Source: Bacteroidota bacterium (GTDB taxonomy: Bacteria; Bacteroidota; Bacteroidia; Bacteroidales; VadinHA17). Taken from it: 64,000 bases of DNA. Shown here piece by piece: positions 54,957 through 64,000 of the stretch. Location of the stretch: positions 215,271 through 279,270 of the forward strand of contig JAKPOU010000042.1 of NCBI GenBank assembly GCA_029547705.1, written 5' to 3'. The position numbers and the translations under genes were made by a program. The notes under the pieces were generated by a model, which was not told the DNA's origin, did no database searches, and was given only the letters and a program-made list of their open reading frames with translations. Numbering within the stretch: the first letter of the stretch is position 1; each line of letters begins with the position of its first letter.

Positions 54957-55012
54957 TTGTAAAATTGTCTGCTTCATCATTCAGTCTTTGCCATGCCGGG
55001 ATTTTTTGAGAG
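54909..55012 (+). repeat. Imperfect direct repeat covering a gene start
   Basis: About 27 bp at 54909-54936 (CTTTGTCCATGCCGGGATTG...) is repeated at 54986-55012 (CTTTGCCATGCCGGGATTTT...). The second copy contains the start codon of the membrane protein gene. The first copy contains an ATG opening a nine-codon frame (MPGLFLSLF, stop at 54944-54946) that mimics the gene's own start. Confidence 0.7.
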
Positions 55013-55415
55013 GTTCAGGCCACATGCATCCAGGAAAGCTTTATCGCTGATAGCCGGTACGATGTGGGCCGGTGTAGGAATAATGCTTACACTGAGGGCA
55101 GTCGGATGGCTCAGGGATTACCAGGGGAATGTTTGGCTTTTTGCAATACCGGGACTTGCAGCCTCACTGCTTATTCATCATTTCGGCTTCATGAAAATGG
55201 CGGACAGGAATCTTGACCGTATCTCGCATCTGCCGGACAGGCCTTGTGTCTTTTCCTTCATCTCCGGCAAAAGCTATCTCATCATAGCCATCATGGTTTC
55301 CATGGGAATCGGGCTGCGTCATTCCCCCGTTCCCAGGCAGTATCTCTCGGTGGTTTACCTGGGAATCGGTCTGGCGCTTTTTCTTTCAGGCATAAGATAT
55401 TTCCGGAAAGCCTGA
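54993..55415 (+). CDS. Conserved small integral membrane protein
   Basis: A 140-residue protein with about four hydrophobic helices: ALSLIAGTMWAGVGIMLTL (residues 15-33), NVWLFAIPGLAASLLIHHFG (46-65), YLIIAIMVSMGIGL (94-107) and YLSVVYLGIGLALFLSG (117-133). No catalytic motif or family name is recognised. The start at 54993 lies in a duplicated sequence. It is divergent from the FadL-type gene and sits 200 bp before the nitrate reductase locus; no functional link is evident. Confidence 0.75.
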   Translation: MPGFFERFRPHASRKALSLIAGTMWAGVGIMLTLRAVGWLRDYQGNVWLFAIPGLAASLLIHHFGFMKMADRNLDRISHLPDRPCVFSFISGKSYLIIAIMVSMGIGLRHSPVPRQYLSVVYLGIGLALFLSGIRYFRKA

Positions 55416-55434: not shown

Positions 55435-55464
55435 TTTGCCGGTTTAAAAAAACAAATATCTTTG
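55435..55464 (+). promoter_or_regulatory. Promoter of the nar locus
   Basis: TTTG (55435-55438) and TATCTTTG (55457-55464) are 18 bp apart, a good fit to the Bacteroidetes TTTG/TAnnTTTG promoter. The expected start is near 55471, giving a leader of about 145 nt before the cytochrome gene. A second possible -7 box, TAATTTTG, lies at 55478-55485. Confidence 0.55.
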
Positions 55465-55471
55465 TGAGGAT

Positions 55472-55502
55472 GCCTTATAATTTTGCTAAAAATAAGGCAA
55501 AA
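55472..55502 (+). promoter_or_regulatory. Overlapping inverted repeats at the nar transcript start
   Basis: GCCTTAT (55472-55478) pairs with ATAAGGC (55492-55498). TTTTGC (55481-55486) pairs with GCAAAA (55497-55502). The two share bases 55497-55498, so in RNA they are mutually exclusive; in DNA either could be an operator. No FNR-type TTGAT-N4-ATCAA site was seen. Confidence 0.45.
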
Positions 55503-55570
55503 TACTGATAACCCGAAAAGTAGTTTTTTTAGCGTATTAACCCAGGCTCCTGCTCAGATAAAGGAGGATC

Positions 55571-55597
55571 ATGATGACCGGACTTTTCAGTAAATAA
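55571..55597 (+). CDS. Possible eight-codon leader ORF with strong ribosome binding site
   Basis: AAGGAGG at 55561-55567 lies 3 bp before ATG 55571, which opens MMTGLFSK and stops at 55597, 18 bp before the cytochrome start. Shine-Dalgarno sequences this strong are unusual in Bacteroidota, which is why it is listed. Translation is unproven. Confidence 0.3.
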   Translation: MMTGLFSK

Positions 55598-55615
55598 CCT
55601 ATAATTAACCATTTC

Positions 55616-56431
55616 ATGCAAACGGATTTGACAAAGATCTCCCTGTTTGCCCTATGCCTTTTTCTTTACTCAGTGAGCCCCGTTCTGCGGGCTCAGGACG
55701 GCGGTGAGAAAATTTTTGAATCGAACTGTTCCGCGTGCCATACCATTGGCGGAGGGAGGCTGGTGGGCCCAGATTTAAGCGGTGTTTACCGGATAAGGAA
55801 CAATGAATGGCTGATAAGCTTTATACGTTCATCGCAGCAGCTGATCAAATCGGGCGACAGTGCGGCAGTTGCGATTTATGAGGAATACAACAGGGTCCCG
55901 ATGCCTGACAACCGGCTTAGTGATGCACAGATACTCGGTGTAATTGACTATATTAAAGCTTCAGATTCCGATGTTCAGGCTGCCGGCGCCGTTCCTGAAA
56001 TCCCGGAAGACAGTCTGGCCGTTATCTACAGTACTGAATATGCAGCTGCAGGCAGGGCACTCTTTTATGGTCACAGCGCTTTTGCCAACGGTGCCGCCCC
56101 ATGCCTTTCCTGTCACAATATCAGTGATCAGTCCTTTCTGGGAGGGGGAAGAATGGCCCGCGATCTGACCGCCTCCTATGGCAACCTGGGCGCGGCCGGA
56201 ATCACTGCCATTGTCAGAAACTCACCCTTCCCCGCTATGAAAACTGCCCTCAGCGGTCATGACATCAACGATGATGAAATCCAGGCCCTGATCTCTCTCC
56301 TGAAAGCAGCCGGGGAACAGACATACCGCACGAGGCAGCCGGGACTGATCTTTTTCAGTCTGGGTCTGATAGTGGCACTGATACTGATTGCCCATCTCTA
56401 TATTTTTTATGACGGGAGAAGAATTCCGTGA
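55616..56431 (+). CDS. Membrane-anchored diheme cytochrome c of the nar locus
   Basis: A 271-residue exported cytochrome. A signal peptide covers about residues 8-26 (SLFALCLFLYSVSPVLRAQ). Two cytochrome c domains follow, with heme motifs CSACH near residue 40 and CLSCH near 162. Likely axial methionines are in VPMPDNRLSD and FPAMKTALSG. A C-terminal helix (LIFFSLGLIVALILIAHLYI) anchors it, leaving the hemes in the periplasm. It is first in the operon and precedes narG by 64 bp. In Thermus a diheme cytochrome (NarC) is likewise first in the nar operon; homology to it was not tested. Confidence 0.88.
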   Translation: MQTDLTKISLFALCLFLYSVSPVLRAQDGGEKIFESNCSACHTIGGGRLVGPDLSGVYRIRNNEWLISFIRSSQQLIKSGDSAAVAIYEEYNRVPMPDNRLSDAQILGVIDYIKASDSDVQAAGAVPEIPEDSLAVIYSTEYAAAGRALFYGHSAFANGAAPCLSCHNISDQSFLGGGRMARDLTASYGNLGAAGITAIVRNSPFPAMKTALSGHDINDDEIQALISLLKAAGEQTYRTRQPGLIFFSLGLIVALILIAHLYIFYDGRRIP

Positions 56432-56446
56432 GTTTTAAAAATAAGT

Positions 56447-56464
56447 CCGGATGGCGGCATCCGG
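56447..56464 (+). other. Intercistronic hairpin between cytochrome gene and narG
   Basis: CCGGATG (56447-56453) pairs with CATCCGG (56458-56464) around a GCGG loop, without a T-tract. More likely an RNA-processing or stability element than a terminator. Confidence 0.5.
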
Positions 56465-56495
56465 GAAAAGTTATGCTGATTAAAAAACAGGAATC

Positions 56496-59400
56496 ATGAG
56501 TTGGATAAAAGATATGATATCACCCCAGACCCGGGAATGGGAAGAGTTTTATCGTAATCGCTGGCAGTATGACAAGGTGGTACGCAGTACTCACGGGGTG
56601 AACTGTACCGGAGGCTGCGGCTGGAATGTTCATGTCAAGGAGGGAATAGTGGTATGGGAACTCCAGGCCCTTGATTATCCCCGGCTTGAGAATTCTCTTC
56701 CGCCATATGAACCGAGAGGCTGCCAGAGAGGGATATCATTCTCCTGGTACCTCTACAGTCCCGTTCGGGTTAAATATCCCATGATCAGAGGCGCCCTTCT
56801 TGATTTGTTCAATGAAGAAAGGAAAAAGACGGGAGATCCTCTTCTGGCCTGGCAAAACATTCAGAATGATCCTGAAAAAAGGAGAAAATACCAGAAGGCC
56901 CGCGGCAAGGGCGGTTTCAGGAGAGTTGCATGGACGGAGGTAATGGAGCTGATCGGGGCTGCAAACATTTACACGGCCAAAAAATACGGTGCTGACAGGG
57001 TAGTCGGGTTTTCTCCCATTCCCGCCATGTCGATGATTAGCTTTGCCGCAGGATCGAGATTTCTTCAGTTGTTTGGCGGTGTGCATCTAAGTTTTTATGA
57101 CTGGTACTGCGATCTGCCCAGTTCCTTTCCGGAGGTGTGGGGTGAACAGACGGATGTCGGGGAGAGTGCCGACTGGTACAATGCCAGGTTCATTGCCGTG
57201 ATGGGCGCAAACCTGGGCATGACGCGTACTCCCGATGTCCATTTCTTTTCCGAAGCCCGTCATAACGGAACCAAAACCGTGGTTTTCTCACCCGATTTCA
57301 GCATGGTTTCAAAATATGCCGATCAGTGGATACCGGTTCATGCAGGCCAGGATGGTGCCTTCTGGATGGCTGTGACCCACGTTATACTGAAAGAGGCTCA
57401 TGCTGAAAAACAGACAGGCTATTTTATTGAATACACAAAAAAATATACCGATGCGCCTTTTCTTGTGGAATTGGTAAAGGAGGATGACCGGTGGCTTCCA
57501 GGGAGATTGTTAAGGGCAAGCCTACTGGAGAAATACCGTAATACGGAGAACGGAGACTGGAAATTTCTGAATCTTGATGAGAACACGGGTGATTTTATCT
57601 GCCCTTCCGGCAGTTCAGGCCACAGATGGCAAAACGGCACGGGACAATGGAACCTGAAATACCGTGACGGTGAAACAGGATCAGAATATAATCCGGTACT
57701 TTCGCTGATTGACAGAAAAGATGCAATACTTGAAGTTGAGTTTGCCGATTTTGCCCGGGATGCAAGATCCAGGCGGGGTGTCCCTGTGAAATACCTGAAG
57801 ACAAGGGAAGGAGAGACGGCGTTCACTACTGTTTATGACCTCATTATGGGACAGTACGGGGTTGACCGGGGCCTTGGCGGTGACAGCCCTTCATCCTATG
57901 ATGATGCTGATTCTGCTTATACCCCGGCATGGCAGGAGATCTATACCGGAATAAGTTCAGCCACTGTAATCCGGTTTGCCCGGGAATGGTACCGGACTGC
58001 AGAGGCCACCCGGGGCAGGTGCATGGTTATAATAGGGGCAGGAGTGAATCACTGGTATCACAGCAACCTTATCTACCGTGCAGCAACAATGGCTTTGCTG
58101 CTTACCGGCTGCCCGGGAGTCAACGGCGGCGGTCTGAATCACTATGTGGGCCAGGAGAAGCTTGCACCGTTTGATTCATGGGGTGCAATCATGTCGGGAA
58201 AGGACTGGAACATTCCGGCCAGGTTTCAGCAGTCGCCCATATGGCATTACATTCATTCCGATCAGTGGCGCTATGACGGTAATCAGGCTGATTACAACAC
58301 CGTCCCGGAAAATGATTTTTCTTCCCGCCATTCAGCCGATTTGATAGTAAAGGCGGTGAGAAACGGCTGGATGCCATTTTTTCCTCAGTATGACAGGAAC
58401 AACTTTGAAATAGCATCAGATGCAAAAGAGGCAGGTGCCATGGACGACAAGGGCATTCAGGATTATGTGATCAGCCGGCTTAAGAAGGGAGAATTAAACT
58501 ATTCTGTTTCAGATCCTGATTCAGAGGAGAATTTCCCGAGAGTGTGGTTCATATGGAGGGGCAATGCCCTAATGGCCAGTGCAAAAGGTCATGAATATTT
58601 CCTGAAGCACTACCTCGGGACCCATCACAATGAAATAGCCGACGAGGTGGCAAAAGAGCTGGTAAGGGAGATTGAATGGAAAGAAAATGCTCCTGAAGGA
58701 AAGATGGACCTGGTGGTGGATCTGAATTTCAGAATGGACACCACGGCCCTTTATTCCGATATTGTTCTTCCGGCAGCATCATGGTATGAAAAAGCCGATC
58801 TGAACACCACCGACATGCATTCTTTCATCAATCCGCTGGCTCCGGCAATTCCTCCCGTGTGGGAAGCGAAAAGCGACTGGGCAATATTCCGCGAAATTGC
58901 CAGAACAACGAGTGAGATAGCTAAAAAACATTTTCCCGGCCCGGTGCTCGATATTGTTAATGTGCCCATCGGTCATGATACAAGGGGAGAAATTTCCCAG
59001 CCTTCAATAAAGGACTGGTATACGGGAGAATGCGACCCCGTCCCGGGTAAATCAATGCACAATATCGTAAGTGTTGAAAGAGATTATACCAGAATATATG
59101 ATAAGTTCATAAGTCTGGGAAGCAACGTTCGCAAGGGACTTGAAGCCCATAATATAACCATTCCCTGCGAGGATTTCTATGAACGCCTGCTCAGTGACAA
59201 GAGTCATGTAAACCGGATAGACGGTGAAACATTTCCCTCCATCGGGGATGATACGGAAGTCATTAATGCGATCCTTCTCCTTTCATCGGTTACAAACGGT
59301 ACTCTAAGCGGAAGGGCCTTCTCTTCGCTGGAAAAAAATACCGGAATTGACCTGAGTGAGGTTAATCCCGTTAACAATGATATCACTGTCTGTTTCAATG

Positions 59401-60107
59401 ATCTGCAGGCGCAGCCAAGGAGACTGCTGAATTCTCCTATATGGTCGGGCCTGATGACAAACGGCAGGGCCTATTCAGCCTTCACACTGAACATTGAGCA
59501 GCTGATTCCCTGGCGGACCCTTACAGGCCGTCAGCACATGTATCTTGACCATGAAGGCTATATCCGTTTCGGTGAAAACCTGCCCACCTACAAGCCTTCG
59601 CCAAGACCTGAATCATACGGGGACCTCCGCAAAACAATCCCGGAAGGGGATGCTCTTCTTCTCAATGTCCTTACCCCGCACGGGAAATGGCATATCCATT
59701 CCACCTACGGCGACACTTTAAGGATGCTTACCCTGTCGAGGGGCATGGAACCCTGCTGGCTGAGCGAAAAAGATGCTGAAAGGCTCGGGATCAGGGACAA
59801 TGACTGGGTGGAAGTATTCAATGACAACGGAAATTACTGTACCCGTGCATGTGTCAGTTCGCGGATACCTCCGGGAACATGCATCATTTACCATGCTCCC
59901 GAACGAACCTATTCGGTGCCGAAATCGAAACGCAGCGGCAACAAAAGGGCGGGAAGTCACAACAGTCTGATCAGGGTACATCTGAAGCCAAACCTGCTGG
60001 TTGGCGGATACGGACAGTTTACTTTCGGAATGAATTACTGGGGACCGGTGGGGGTGAACAGGGATACATTTGCCCTTATACGGAAACTTGATAATGTGAC
60101 TTTTTAA
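56496..60107 (+). CDS. narG: Respiratory nitrate reductase alpha subunit
   Basis: The molybdenum bis-MGD catalytic subunit reducing nitrate to nitrite. The 1203-residue protein has the NarG N-terminus ([20 protein letters not shown]). The FS0 cluster ligands are His33, Cys37, Cys41 and Cys76 (HGVNCTGGC ... RGCQRG); a His as first ligand is typical of NarG. The block [20 protein letters not shown] near residue 205 carries the region of the Mo-ligand Asp. There is no twin-arginine signal, so the active site should face the cytoplasm. The C-terminal dinucleotide-binding domain ends [14 protein letters not shown]. narHJI follow. Confidence 0.95.
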
Positions 60108-60127
60108 TTTTATGAATCAGGCATACC

Positions 60128-61618
60128 ATGAATATCAAATCTCAGATTTCCATCGTTTTTCATCTTGACAAGTGCATCGGATGCCACACCTGTTCCATTG
60201 CATGTAAGAACGCATGGACCGACAGGAAGGGTGCAGAGTATATGTGGTGGAACAATGTTGAGACCAAACCGGGTACCGGTTATCCCCGCAGATGGGAAGA
60301 ACAGGATTTATACAGGGGGGGATGGGAAAAGGACGGCAGCAGGGTAAGACTGAAAGGAGCCGGAAAAATAAAGGGAACGGGTGTTATATTTCAAAACCCG
60401 AATCTGCCTGCCCTGGATAACTATTATGAACCATGGACCTACCGCTACGAAAAGCTTCTGGATGCACCGGCCGGGGATGATCAGCCGACGGCAGAGCCTG
60501 TATCCCTTATAACTGGAGACAGGATAACTCCGAAATCAGGGCCCAACTGGGATGACGACCTCGGGGGATCTCCCATCTATGCCAGGAATGATACAAATCT
60601 GTCGGATCTGACAGAAACAGAGAAGGAGGCTCTGTTTCAGCTGGAAAGGATGGTTATGTTCTATCTTCCCAGAATCTGCAACCATTGCCTCAATCCGGCC
60701 TGTGTTGCCGCCTGTCCCTCAGGTGCCATATACAAACGGGGAGAAGACGGCATAGTCCTGATAAACCAGAAGAAATGCAGGGCCTGGAGATTGTGTGTCA
60801 CTGCATGTCCGTATAAAAAGGTATATTTTAACTGGAATACGGGTAAATCGGAGAAATGCATCCTTTGCTATCCCCGTATCGAAACCATGCAGATTCCGGC
60901 CTGTATGCACTCCTGTGTCGGGCGTATCAGGTACCTGGGGGTAATGCTCTATGATGCTGACCGGATCAGGGAAGCTGCATCTGCTGAGGACAGGGATATT
61001 GTGGGGAGTCAGCTGGATCTTTTTCTCGACCCGAACGACCCTGTGGTGATCAGTCAGGCAAAAAAGTCCGGTATTCCCGACTCCACAATGGAGGCTGCCA
61101 GGAAATCACCCGTATGGAAATACGTTAAGGAATGGGGGCTGGCCCTGCCTCTTCATCCGGAATTCCGGACCCTGCCCGGCCTGTTTTATGCCCTGCCTCT
61201 CCTGCCGGCCATGGCAACCATGGAAAACAATTTCTACAGTTCTACAGGCAGTTCATTATGGAACAATGTGGATGACTCACGGCTGCCCATGAAATATCTG
61301 GCAAACCTGTTCAGTGCCGGTGATACGGAACTGGTCAGGAATATCCTGAAAAAGATGCTGGCTGTCAGGATTCACCGCCGTTCTGTAACAGTGGGGGATA
61401 TAACTGAAAAGGAGGCTTCCCGCGTTCTGCAGGATTCCGGTCTGTCGGCCGGAACGGCTGATGAAATATTCAGAATGACATCCCTCGCAGACTATGGCGA
61501 CAGGTTTGTTATTCCTCCTGCTCACCGCGAAGAAGCTGTTGAAGCCATTGAAAATACATTTATACGTAAGGAGAACGCGGGATTCGGATTCAGGGAGAAA
61601 CCGGAAAGGGGACTTTGA
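60128..61618 (+). CDS. narH: Respiratory nitrate reductase beta subunit
   Basis: The electron-transfer subunit with four Fe-S clusters. The 496-residue protein has CIGCHTCSIACK near residue 17, then CNHCLNPACVAACPSGAIYK near 184, CRAWRLCVTACPYKKV near 217 and CILCYPRIE with ACMHSCVGR near 244-265. The Trp in CRAWRLC replaces a cysteine and marks the [3Fe-4S] cluster, a NarH feature. The length and the C-terminal NarH-specific domain (SSTGSSLWNNVDDSRLPMKY) are standard. It starts 20 bp after narG, and its stop lies 1 bp before the narJ start codon. Confidence 0.95.
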   Translation: MNIKSQISIVFHLDKCIGCHTCSIACKNAWTDRKGAEYMWWNNVETKPGTGYPRRWEEQDLYRGGWEKDGSRVRLKGAGKIKGTGVIFQNPNLPALDNYYEPWTYRYEKLLDAPAGDDQPTAEPVSLITGDRITPKSGPNWDDDLGGSPIYARNDTNLSDLTETEKEALFQLERMVMFYLPRICNHCLNPACVAACPSGAIYKRGEDGIVLINQKKCRAWRLCVTACPYKKVYFNWNTGKSEKCILCYPRIETMQIPACMHSCVGRIRYLGVMLYDADRIREAASAEDRDIVGSQLDLFLDPNDPVVISQAKKSGIPDSTMEAARKSPVWKYVKEWGLALPLHPEFRTLPGLFYALPLLPAMATMENNFYSSTGSSLWNNVDDSRLPMKYLANLFSAGDTELVRNILKKMLAVRIHRRSVTVGDITEKEASRVLQDSGLSAGTADEIFRMTSLADYGDRFVIPPAHREEAVEAIENTFIRKENAGFGFREKPERGL

Positions 61619-61619
61619 C

Positions 61620-62213
61620 ATGAAAGATTTAACGCATTACGGTCTGCTGGCGGAGATGTTCCGGTACCCCACGGATGATCTGAAGAATTATCCGGAGAAG
61701 TGGAACGACATTGTTTCCCGTTATGATGCATCCCTGATGTCACGGCTGGACCGTTTTACTGCTCATGTAAGGGGAAAGCCGCTGGCCTTTCAGCAGGAAT
61801 ACTACGTCGGCACCTTTGATGTGCAGGCCCTGTGTTTCCTGGATGTAGGCTATGTTTTATACGGTGAGGATTACAGGCGGGGTATATTCCTGGTGAATAT
61901 TAAAAAGGAACAGATAAAGGCAAAAAATGACTGCGGGAGCGAATTGCCCGATCATCTGCCGAATATTCTGACCCTCCTGCCCAGGATGGCTGATCCTGAA
62001 CTGGCTGAGGAACTGATCTGTTCCATGCTTATTCCTGCAATACACAGGATGATTGCGGAATTCAGGGACATGTCGAATCTTTATAAAGGCTTGCTTGAGA
62101 TTCTGGCAGGAATCATGGAAGCAGATTTTCCCTTTTCAACTTTTGAAAGATTCACCTTTGGCGGACGGGAAAATGAAATTATAATAAATAAAAATCAAAC
62201 AGGATGGAAATGA
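61620..62213 (+). CDS. narJ: Nitrate reductase assembly chaperone
   Basis: A TorD/NarJ-family chaperone that helps load the molybdenum cofactor into NarG and does not remain in the final enzyme. The ATG at 61620 is chosen because it follows the narH stop by 1 bp and gives MKDLTHYGLLAEMFRYPTDD; an open frame reaches back into narH but is not needed. The 197-residue helical protein has FQQEYYVGTFDVQALCFLDV near residue 60, followed by GYVLYGEDYRRG. It overlaps narI by 10 bp. Confidence 0.9.
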   Translation: MKDLTHYGLLAEMFRYPTDDLKNYPEKWNDIVSRYDASLMSRLDRFTAHVRGKPLAFQQEYYVGTFDVQALCFLDVGYVLYGEDYRRGIFLVNIKKEQIKAKNDCGSELPDHLPNILTLLPRMADPELAEELICSMLIPAIHRMIAEFRDMSNLYKGLLEILAGIMEADFPFSTFERFTFGGRENEIIINKNQTGWK

Positions 62214-62884
62214 ACGGGTTTTTCTTTTTTGTTTTACTGCCTTACCTGGCTCTTTTTTCCCTGCTTCCTGCAAGCATATATAAATACAGGGTACATGGAT
62301 TCAGGGTATCCTCCCTCTCCAGCCAGCTCCTTGAGAATAAACTGTTGTTTTTCGGAAGCAGGCCGTTTCACTGGGGAATCATCCTGTTGTTCTTCGGCCA
62401 CCTTATCGCTTTTCTGATCCCGGCGTCGGTACTGGCGTGGAACGAAAAACCGGTCCGGCTGTACATACTTGAAGTGGCTGCCCTGTCCTTTGGATTCATG
62501 ACTTTGATAGGATTTTTAATATTGGTTTACAGACGATTGAGGGTCAAAAGGATCCGGCTCGTTACAAGCAGAATGGATGTTTTCGTGTTTCTGATACTGG
62601 CAGTCCAGATTGTAACAGGCTTGTATACAGCATTGTTTTTCAGATGGGGATCATCCTGGTTTGCCACGGTGCTGACTCCCTATCTTAAATCTGTCTTTGC
62701 CTTCAGGCCCGATGTCGCAGCAGTTACTGCCCTTCCCGTTATGGTGAAGATTCATATTGCCTCGGCCTTTGTTCTTGTCGGAATGATCCCCTATACAAGA
62801 TTCATGCATTTTTTGGTTTACCCCTTTGTGTATTTCTGGCGCCGCTATCAGATAGTGATCTGGAACAAAAGGGAAAGTGCCTGA
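62204..62884 (+). CDS. narI: Respiratory nitrate reductase gamma subunit (cytochrome b)
   Basis: The diheme cytochrome b that anchors NarGH and oxidises menaquinol. The 226-residue protein has five hydrophobic segments. Heme-ligand histidines are in RPFHWGIILLFFGHLIAF (near residues 57-70) and VKIHIASAFVLVGMIPYTRF followed by MHFLVYP (near 183-206). The N-terminus (MNGFFFFVLLPYLALFSLLP) is periplasmic by family topology. It overlaps narJ by 10 bp, and the multiheme cytochrome gene follows after 57 bp. Confidence 0.94.
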   Translation: MEMNGFFFFVLLPYLALFSLLPASIYKYRVHGFRVSSLSSQLLENKLLFFGSRPFHWGIILLFFGHLIAFLIPASVLAWNEKPVRLYILEVAALSFGFMTLIGFLILVYRRLRVKRIRLVTSRMDVFVFLILAVQIVTGLYTALFFRWGSSWFATVLTPYLKSVFAFRPDVAAVTALPVMVKIHIASAFVLVGMIPYTRFMHFLVYPFVYFWRRYQIVIWNKRESA

Positions 62885-62941
62885 ACAGTAAAAAGCTGAA
62901 ACACGAAATGACAATTGATACATTATCATAAATTCCATGCC

Positions 62942-64000
62942 ATGAGGAAGTCCTGCAGCCGGAAATATTCCCCGGGCTTATCCGCCCTGACATTTTCATC
63001 ACTTGTTTTTATTTTTTCCGCTGGTTTTTCGCATCCTGCTTCCGCTGACCTGCCGCCTGATGCTCCCGGCAAACAGGAATTGCAGTCAGAAGATTCAGTG
63101 AAAAGCATATCCGGGTCAGTAATACAGGCTTCAGAAGAACTGATCAGGGGGCAGAGACTTTTTTACGGACTGGTTTATCCGGATAATAAAGCGATGAATT
63201 GTGCTGCCTGTCACAATACAGCCGTAACCGACACCCTGAACTGGAATCCTGATGCGGTGGAGATATCGGGGAAATATAAAAACAAAAGTGTTGATGATCT
63301 CACGGAAATCCTGCTCAGTCCCACCGGAAAGAAGATGGCACAGGTGCACCGGGATTTCCGTTTTACCCCTGAGGAGATTATGCTGATAAAGGGTTATATG
63401 GATGAGCTTGCCGGTACCGGCCTGACGCAAAGGAAGCCTCCTGTCACAAACCTGGTTCTGTTCATCACAGCCTTTTTCCTGTTTTTTGTTTCAGCAGTCG
63501 ACCTGATAATCACCAAAAAGATAAAAAAACGCTGGATTAATCCTGTTGTTCTCTCTATTGCAACAGTATATATTACCTGGTCTCTTGTTGTCAATGCTAT
63601 TGATCTCGGGCGTTCTCCGGGCTATTCACCTGATCAGCCGGTAAAGTTTTCCCATCAGATTCATGCGGAGCAAAACGGAACAGACTGCATTTATTGCCAC
63701 AATTATGCTCCTTACAGCAAGTCAGCGGGAATCCCGGCCCAGAATATCTGTATGAACTGTCATCTTCTGGTGCGCAGCGGAACCAGGTCGGGCATGTTTG
63801 AAATAGCAAAGGTTACAGGAAGCTATGAGGAGAAAAGGCCGATTGAATGGATCAGGGTACACAATGTTCCGGATCATGTGTTTTTCAGTCATGCCCAGCA
63901 CGTTGGCGCAGGAGGAATTGATTGCGCGGAATGCCACGGGGATGTTGCAAAGATGGTCAGGATCAGGCAGGTATCTGATCTGTCGATGGGCTGGTGTATT
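62942..64000 (+). CDS. ActA-like multiheme cytochrome c, 3' end cut by window
   Basis: The plus-strand frame opens at ATG 62942 and stays open for 353 codons to the window edge. An N-terminal signal (LTFSSLVFIFSAGFSHPASA) precedes a monoheme domain with CAACH near residue 87. Two transmembrane helices (TNLVLFITAFFLFFVSAVDL and INPVVLSIATVYITWSLVVN) follow. The next section reads SPDQPVKFSHQIHAEQNGTD, CIYCH, GIPAQNICMNCH, IEWIRVHNVPDHVFFSHAQH and CAECHGDV, which matches ActA, the pentaheme subunit of Alternative Complex III. Four heme motifs are visible; more are expected beyond the edge. Confidence 0.85.
   Translation, partial: MRKSCSRKYSPGLSALTFSSLVFIFSAGFSHPASADLPPDAPGKQELQSEDSVKSISGSVIQASEELIRGQRLFYGLVYPDNKAMNCAACHNTAVTDTLNWNPDAVEISGKYKNKSVDDLTEILLSPTGKKMAQVHRDFRFTPEEIMLIKGYMDELAGTGLTQRKPPVTNLVLFITAFFLFFVSAVDLIITKKIKKRWINPVVLSIATVYITWSLVVNAIDLGRSPGYSPDQPVKFSHQIHAEQNGTDCIYCHNYAPYSKSAGIPAQNICMNCHLLVRSGTRSGMFEIAKVTGSYEEKRPIEWIRVHNVPDHVFFSHAQHVGAGGIDCAECHGDVAKMVRIRQVSDLSMGWCI

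Follow-up and report, generated by a model that had tools for sequence, protein, structure and literature searches.

Nitrate reductases of the Nar type are taught as requiring only quinol. Why, then, should one be encoded between two c-type cytochromes? The question is raised by the last 8.4 kb of a 64,000-nucleotide stretch from a Bacteroidota bacterium of the VadinHA17 lineage (hereafter the window; GCA_029547705.1, contig JAKPOU010000042.1), in which a diheme cytochrome gene precedes narGHJI and a gene resembling actA of Alternative Complex III (ACIII) follows it. The window covers bases 215271-279270 of a 426-kb contig in a genome of 3.78 Mb that is ~93% complete. This genome is called G000 below, other G labels denote compared genomes, and L labels denote the stretches that were read. 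With about even confidence, we propose that narCGHJI-actABCDEF is a nitrate-respiration module, in which ACIII would be dedicated to the nitrate pathway and its electrons would reach Nar via NarC.

Nar genes are followed by a complete ACIII operon

The nar and act genes all lie on one strand. An original prediction, made from the window's sequence, had described NarGHJI, a diheme cytochrome and an ActA-like gene in this layout, and each of these genes is present:

55616-56431, + strand: narC, 271 aa, two CxxCH motifs and a hydrophobic C-terminal stretch; Pfam Cytochrom_C
56496-60107, + strand: narG, alpha (catalytic) subunit; TIGR01580, 1460.6 bits against a curated cut-off of 1084
60128-61618, + strand: narH, iron-sulfur beta subunit; TIGR01660, 652.6 bits against a cut-off of 524
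61620-62213, + strand: narJ, assembly chaperone, placed between narH and narI; TIGR00684, E 7e-13, 48.8 bits, below its NCBI cut-off of 59.35
62204-62884, + strand: narI, membrane diheme b subunit; PF02665, E 2.6e-57; TIGR00351, 120.5 bits, above cut-off
62942-64000, + strand: actA, 5' part, six-heme ACIII subunit; 6btm_A, E 3e-45

NarG, NarH and NarI exceed their NCBIfam cut-offs, as expected of the respiratory Nar family. The first 40 residues of NarG, judged by eye, contain no twin-arginine leader, and histidines 56, 66, 184 and 202 of NarI are invariant among 16 aligned NarI sequences. Position 55435 is intergenic, and the first gene of the run is narC at 55616. Successive gaps from narC to actA measure 64, 20, 1, -10 and 57 bp, the last being the value predicted for narI and actA. 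From this spacing and the common strand, we infer that the genes are cotranscribed.

The window edge cuts actA, which ends at contig position 279420, ~150 bp further on. Beyond position 64000, where the prediction had suggested looking for actB-F, the rest of actA is indeed followed on the same strand by actB, actC, actD, actE and actF (stretch L006; gaps from actA through actF of 28, 17, 11, -4 and ~44 bp), so that the full run reads narC-narG-narH-narJ-narI-actA-actB-actC-actD-actE-actF. The entire ActA has 402 aa and six CxxCH motifs and matches Flavobacterium johnsoniae 6btm_A (E 3e-45). The 986-aa ActB, with fused molybdopterin-fold and iron-sulfur parts, matches 6btm_B of the F. johnsoniae ACIII (E 4e-213). 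ActD matches Pfam ActD (E 1.7e-36), ActE carries one CxxCH, and ActF, for which there was no Pfam match, was assigned by its place and its likeness to ActF-like frames at the same place elsewhere. With all six subunits, six hemes in ActA (the Flavobacterium type) and one in ActE, the ActA-like gene is, on sequence evidence, the first gene of a complete ACIII operon, and its predicted relation to ACIII stands. The presence of actB also clears the prediction of its own refuting condition, a sequence past 64000 that lacks ActB-like genes. The six-heme ActA was considered as a feature special to the nar-linked operon and dropped, because F. johnsoniae ActA also has six hemes.

The operon shares actABCDEF and the fused ActB with the ACIII-aa3 system of F. 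johnsoniae and the ACIII-caa3 system of Rhodothermus marinus, and a six-heme ActA with an N-terminal arm with the former (PMC8552683, PMC5928083). Unlike these ACIII-oxidase systems, it has no adjacent coxI or coxII; a CoxIII-like gene persists, and the neighbour is a nitrate reductase. In G000 this CoxIII-like gene (Pfam COX3; L006:7183-7809 (-)) is the only oxidase-type gene next to actF, on the opposite strand, and it has a counterpart in G050 (L030:18636-19244 (-)). The two proteins are identical at 126 of 202 residues, and a dN of 0.27-0.30 against a dS of 0.78-1.04 indicates that the orphan gene is under constraint (dN/dS ~0.3) although CoxI and CoxII genes do not adjoin it; sister genomes have a whole aa3-type operon there. 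The actB frame is open over its whole length in G000 and G050, whereas in G053 the contig end cuts it.

Nar-ACIII linkage recurs in three gene orders

We sought the linkage in 117 genomes of the window's family, in 395 genomes evenly drawn from the phylum (25 with NarI, including G000) and in 20 loci that a NarI alignment picked out of 84,980 species (exact short-peptide matches only). Many of the compared genomes are draft assemblies. After removal of repeats (G281 was taken as G130 because of identical COX1 coordinates) and of the other Nar type of G035, 44 genomes remained. The act genes adjoin nar in 10 of the 44 loci of this branch. In the even phylum sample, linkage was seen in 5 of the 24 genomes besides G000, one stretch (G459) being too short to tell.

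The linked loci were assigned to three groups from gene order, before any tree was built. Group 1 belongs to the window's genus and has narCGHJI-act in G000 and G050 and narI-act in G053, where narC to narJ are off the contig; narI-actA(-actB) is thus kept in related genomes, as the original prediction required of a meaningful linkage. Group 2 (G127, G128) has the inverse order, actABCDEF-narCGHJI, where narC either overlaps actF or starts 12 bp after it. Just ahead of act in G127 are narK-like genes, a RIC-like gene and a Crp/Fnr-like gene (labels by eye). In group 3 (G361, G137, G384, G188, G388), narCGHJI is followed by two narK-like genes and then act. Farther on, G137 has an Alginate_exp gene; similar frames occur in G361 and G384, which also carry a moaA-like gene (label by eye).

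Trees, all made by quick methods, place these groups apart. A NarG tree of 19 rows splits the four linked rows of groups 1 and 2 between two positions, and a clade uniting them was rejected (AU p 1e-8); in an ActB tree of 24 rows, a single clade of the five linked rows was likewise rejected (AU p 1e-11). Larger trees (41 NarG and 33 ActB) put group 3 in a third, separate clade in both. With three gene orders on separate tree branches, the linkage would hardly be chance, and a functional link between Nar and ACIII appears likely because the order is kept in G050 and G053 and two further arrangements occur elsewhere. A single ancient linkage that was later lost or inverted many times is a less likely but conceivable alternative history.

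Two loci are of separate note. In G050 (WXFD01000013.1, L030:9875-11680), NarI and ActA form one 601-aa frame via a signal-like segment, with no in-frame ATG, GTG or TTG at the junction. This frame is either a real fusion, which would tie the two complexes together, or an assembly error; it comes from one assembly and a one-base change would split it, so it was not used as evidence. In G117 (L078:3331-17434), two nar operons of different types lie tail to tail, and narC was seen with only one of them.

Oxidase genes and the linked ACIII

Oxidase content bears on whether the linked ACIII could be dedicated to nitrate. In four of the five group 3 genomes (G361, G137, G384, G188), a second act operon stands beside coxII and coxI on another contig; none was found around the one oxidase gene read in G388. 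The oxidase-side ActB sequences form a clade apart from the nar-side ones, that of G361 being a long branch with a tool warning. Among ten ACIII loci of the window's genus without visible nar, six converge on an aa3-type oxidase operon (L061, L063, L066, L067, L072, L074) and four are cut earlier. Two loci of other genera (L065, L068) have no cox at the corresponding place.

The COX1 search covered 10 of the 18 ACIII genomes of the window's genus. All six without nar (G042, G089, G068, G048, G046, G030) have an aa3-like COX1 at 461-519 bits; G042, also in this set, has no more than a partial match to PF02665 (NarI), within a frame of 318 aa. None of the four with this Nar (G000, G050, G053, G084) has a high-scoring COX1; their matches reach only 191-204 bits, and correspond to a quinol-dependent NO reductase (qNor) in G000 and to frames of qNor length in G053 and G084. 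Since three of the four Nar genomes fall in one ActB clade, this pattern amounts to about two events. Outside the genus, the COX1 search gave no match in G128, whose 2.7-Mb draft is of uncertain completeness, and all 15 compared genomes without seen linkage have a COX1 match of 478-518 bits. The idea that linkage is always accompanied by oxidase loss was dropped, as G127 and all five group 3 genomes have COX1-family genes. We also observed in G050 that the gene of a low-scoring COX1-family protein of unusual subtype (L183:8301-9917 (-)) adjoins a short membrane gene; G068 and G089 have frames of comparable length and score.

The upstream cytochrome is the NarC of Thermus-type nitrate reductases

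The diheme cytochrome upstream of narG had been taken for an unusual feature. To judge by sequence and gene order, it is instead NarC, the known fourth subunit of Thermus-type NarCGHI: its gene lies directly before narGHJI, and the protein has two CxxCH motifs and a C-terminal membrane anchor. In a tblastn search with the window's NarC against 72,556 plasmid records, 27 matched, 14 of them from Thermus; 13 of these 14 matches span NarC residues 27-238 with ~29% identity (E 6e-14). On the plasmid of T. thermophilus SG0.5JP17-16, the NarC gene is followed by genes for the nitrate reductase alpha and beta subunits, a TorD-family chaperone, the gamma subunit and an MFS transporter. The T. thermophilus narCGHJIKT operon thus shares with our locus the order narC-G-H-J-I and a homologous diheme NarC. 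It differs in having the MFS transporter gene after narI and, within 9 kb, no listed gene of ACIII (the PLSDB gene table is incomplete). Among related loci where the place can be read, narC precedes narG in 38 of 38, window included (one has a single CxxCH), which makes a c-type cytochrome a normal part of Nar in this branch. One methionine after each heme motif (M96, M208) is invariant in 16 aligned rows, which suggests His/Met ligation.

In Thermus, NarC is required for a mature, active, membrane-bound enzyme, and its interaction with NarI has been shown by two-hybrid assays (PMC7694296). It is thought to carry electrons away from Nar, and its role in electron transport is called not well defined (PMC7694296). 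Thermus NarC is also thought to replace complex III; in our locus, by contrast, genes for a complex III come after nar on the same strand.

NarC is homologous to the N-terminal arm of ActA

A profile of 16 NarC sequences was compared with N-terminal parts of ActA (E-values are those of single comparisons). It matched the two-domain form of ActA (two sequences, G016 and G122) with E 7e-51 over 214 columns, seven ActA of another form with E 2e-45 over the first domain, and fourteen ActA of the Flavobacterium form, the window's included, with E 9e-16 over the second domain and helix. In control comparisons, the CoxII cytochrome domain gave E 5e-9 and ActE E 2.5e-5. The NarC profile was also run on 285 CxxCH-bearing frames (233 distinct), with 43 BLAST-labelled NarC frames set aside. 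It matched all 35 six-heme ActA frames (36-135 bits), all three seven-heme ones (201-216 bits) and the ActA frame cut by the window (44 bits), some frames counted being the same gene from overlapping loci. None of nine five-heme ActA frames, in which this N-terminal part is missing, matched. CoxII frames reached at most 21 bits, ActE frames at most 15, and the next proteins 24. The comparisons thus indicate that NarC is homologous to the N-terminal cytochrome arm of ActA. A tree of single cytochrome domains does not settle whether the domain passed from NarC to ActA or from ActA to NarC.

In F. johnsoniae, cytochrome aa3 receives electrons from ACIII alone and stops working when actA is deleted; the N-terminal heme domain of ActA has been proposed as the mobile connection to this oxidase (PMC8552683). 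An electron exchange between ACIII and Nar would lead one to expect a detached relative of this arm as the first gene of a nar operon. The finding falls short of proof, since NarC also occurs without linked ACIII.

Related architectures were seen elsewhere. The seven-heme ActA have two N-terminal cytochrome domains (L178:11953-13410 (-) and L068:10630-12231 (-)) and a front half laid out like NarC. The only other frames above 24 bits encode three octaheme proteins found in group 3 (42-54 bits; L255:12252-14891 (-), L256:6092-8893, L257:6220-8832), whose NarC-like domain is perhaps the same arm on a bc-type complex. Their genes adjoin Rieske- and cytochrome b-like genes (by eye) and a second oxidase.

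Nitrite, NO and N2O steps

The original prediction had offered two readings of the layout, a larger Nar complex or a double quinol branch for complete denitrification. The link between Nar and ACIII fits the full ACIII and the recurrent gene orders, but the second reading finds no NirK or NosZ to support it. For NosZ, there was no match at all in G000, G050 and G053, and none above cut-off in the ten genomes of the genus tested. NirK had no match in G000, G050, G053, G084, G127 or G128; G117 has one. For the NirS family, G000 (19 bits) and G050 stay below cut-off. Partial matches in G053 and G084, in frames of 1016 and 687 aa, exceed the Pfam cut-off and were taken for other beta-propellers, because the NirS control also matches Bacteroides ihuae and Methanosarcina acetivorans. 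G000, ~93% complete, shows no set of NirS or NirK with NosZ. It has instead NrfA (PF02335, E 1.5e-171), together with an NrfH-like gene on another contig, and its single COX1-family protein is a qNor with a NorB cytochrome c-like domain. From this gene content (NrfA present; no NirK, NosZ or credible NirS), G000 would reduce nitrate to ammonium rather than to N2.

G000 also has a gene for a CCP/MauG-family diheme peroxidase. Except for Nar, and perhaps this peroxidase and multiheme proteins, no typical cytochrome-c-dependent terminal reductase for ACIII was found in this genome, in a search that did not include the bc-type complex, cytochrome bd or narK.

Two further stretches, L237 and L238, carry narCGHJI, two narK-like genes, one gene, a four-heme NrfH-like gene and nrfA (L237 Pfam-checked). 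They form a compact nitrate-to-ammonium set, with no ACIII in the stretch read. In the window itself, a 140-aa membrane-like frame without Pfam match lies upstream of narC (54993-55415) and had no tblastn match in the G050 stretches read.

Proposed electron path and rival explanations

In the proposed module, ACIII would oxidise menaquinol at the periplasmic side, and electrons would pass from the iron-sulfur cluster of ActB to the hemes of ActA and on to the diheme NarC. From there they would move to the b hemes of NarI and across the membrane to NarH and NarG, with nitrate reduced in the cytoplasm and nitrite then reduced to ammonium by NrfAH. Nar would hold the place that cytochrome aa3 has beside ACIII in aerobic relatives, and NarI could still oxidise quinol directly. 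The step from ACIII through NarC to NarI is suggested by the elimination of other acceptors and by analogy with the ACIII-aa3 pair; the direction of flow, any physical contact and the gain in energy we infer. With nitrate at +420 mV and menaquinol at -75 mV, flow from ACIII to Nar would be energetically allowed. A comparable case is Campylobacter jejuni, where nitrate reduction by Nap needs complex III QcrABC: there too, a menaquinol:cytochrome c reductase supplies a nitrate reductase and nitrate respiration is electrogenic (PMC6195509). It differs in pairing QcrABC with a periplasmic Nap, where our locus pairs ACIII with a cytoplasm-facing Nar.

Several observations weigh against a dedicated ACIII. 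Nitrate could be reduced without ACIII, because quinol is the electron donor of a canonical NarI. This Nar does not need a linked ACIII, since 34 of the 44 nar loci show no act in the stretch read (at least five of them end at contig ends). In G084, of the window's genus, nar and act are both present and were not seen linked; both contigs end such that an act-then-nar order could still hold there. A COX1-family oxidase is present in G127 and throughout group 3, and G050 has, besides a frame of qNor length, another COX1-family protein (538 aa) of unassigned subtype. Further multiheme cytochrome genes of unassigned role occur in G000. In G361, an NrfA-family gene directly follows actF, so that ACIII may feed nitrite instead, and the direction proposed for Thermus NarC is away from Nar (PMC7694296).

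In the main rival, ACIII serves periplasmic nitrite reduction or another acceptor co-expressed with Nar. As co-regulated parallel branches, NarGHI would draw directly on menaquinol, ACIII would reduce periplasmic cytochrome c for nitrite reduction and peroxide removal, and NarC would be a structural or branch subunit. We regard this as a serious possibility, if an unlikely one on balance. It draws on the same-strand NrfA-family frame of G361 and the CCP/MauG-type peroxidase gene of G000, on the requirement of Thermus for NarC when it grows with nitrite or NO, conditions under which complex III is repressed (PMC7694296), and on the ACIII-to-nitrite-reductase route proposed for Caldithrix (PMC5317091). 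Yet no multiheme nitrite reductase follows act in G137, G384, G188 or G388 (4 to 13 kb read), and G000, G050 and G053 offer neither NosZ nor NirK matches nor a credible NirS. Moreover, nrfA of G000 sits with an NrfH-like gene on another contig, NrfH being the usual quinol dehydrogenase for NrfA. Alternatively, nar could have landed beside an existing ACIII operon of ordinary function, and the neighbourhood would have no mechanistic meaning. ACIII is fairly common (24 of 117 family genomes) and nar is accessory (high-scoring NarI in 5 of 117), and oxidase genes lie downstream of an ACIII-like cluster in five Planctomycetota instances (PMC10732223). Such clustering seems improbable to us given the closely spaced, one-strand genes in three arrangements on separate branches, the second ACIII kept beside an oxidase in four genomes, and the lack of an aa3-like COX1 in G000, G050 and G053, in the first two of which ActB is nevertheless full length. 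Least probable by far is a reversed Nar acting as nitrite oxidoreductase, with NarC handing electrons from nitrite to ACIII or an oxidase. A Nar-like enzyme of Nitrobacter hamburgensis does oxidise nitrite and passes electrons to a NarC homologue (PMC7694296), but G000 and G053 have one COX1-family protein each, a qNor in the former and one of qNor length in the latter, the draft of G128 yielded no COX1, G000 has NrfA, and kin of this NarC occur in nitrate-respiring Thermus.

A bolder form of the proposed nitrate-dedicated module would be a nitrate respirasome, in which ACIII and NarCGHI would be united in a functional and perhaps also physical supercomplex, with the cytoplasm-facing Nar as its terminal acceptor and NarC, the detached relative of the ActA arm, as its bridge, and electrons would re-cross the membrane via NarI. 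It would have arisen about three times in Bacteroidota, once with loss of aa3. We consider this speculative and rather doubtful; if true, nitrate respiration would add the coupling by ACIII to that of the Nar redox loop.

Relation to earlier work and significance

In metagenome-assembled genomes from a study focused on Planctomycetota and KSB1, Nar was found upstream of an ACIII-like six-gene cluster in 13 instances; the cluster comprises a multiheme cytochrome, a 4Fe-4S/molybdopterin protein, NrfD, ActD, a cytochrome and a second quinone-binding subunit (PMC10732223). By this published description, these clusters share with our locus a Nar followed by the ACIII gene set. They differ in belonging to other phyla, and the authors matched them to no described complex, suggesting an NrfAH-like nitrite reductase or a respiratory complex (PMC10732223). 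Their account of these clusters includes neither trees nor a second, oxidase-linked copy, nor a homology between NarC and ActA (PMC10732223). The clusters are independent support from outside Bacteroidota, and they limit the novelty of the bare linkage. Besides that study, in a literature search with most subscription papers outside its coverage, we recognised no report of a Nar-ACIII operon, an oxidase-linked second copy or NarC-ActA homology. Our locus combines known parts, Nar and ACIII, in a new way.

ActB has been described as taking part exclusively in aerobic respiration (PMC10100899). If the nitrate-dedicated ACIII is real, both this picture and that of a Nar served by quinol alone would change. 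Through its homology with the ActA arm, NarC points to a definite route for the electrons, and this could explain why some Nar enzymes carry a c-type cytochrome. The genomes concerned would also be a test bed for the function of ACIII once its oxidase is gone, and the expected energy yield of nitrate respiration would be higher in many uncultured Bacteroidota. The occurrence of the linkage in several unrelated lineages of the phylum suggests that ACIII, best known for oxygen respiration, has been re-used for nitrate.

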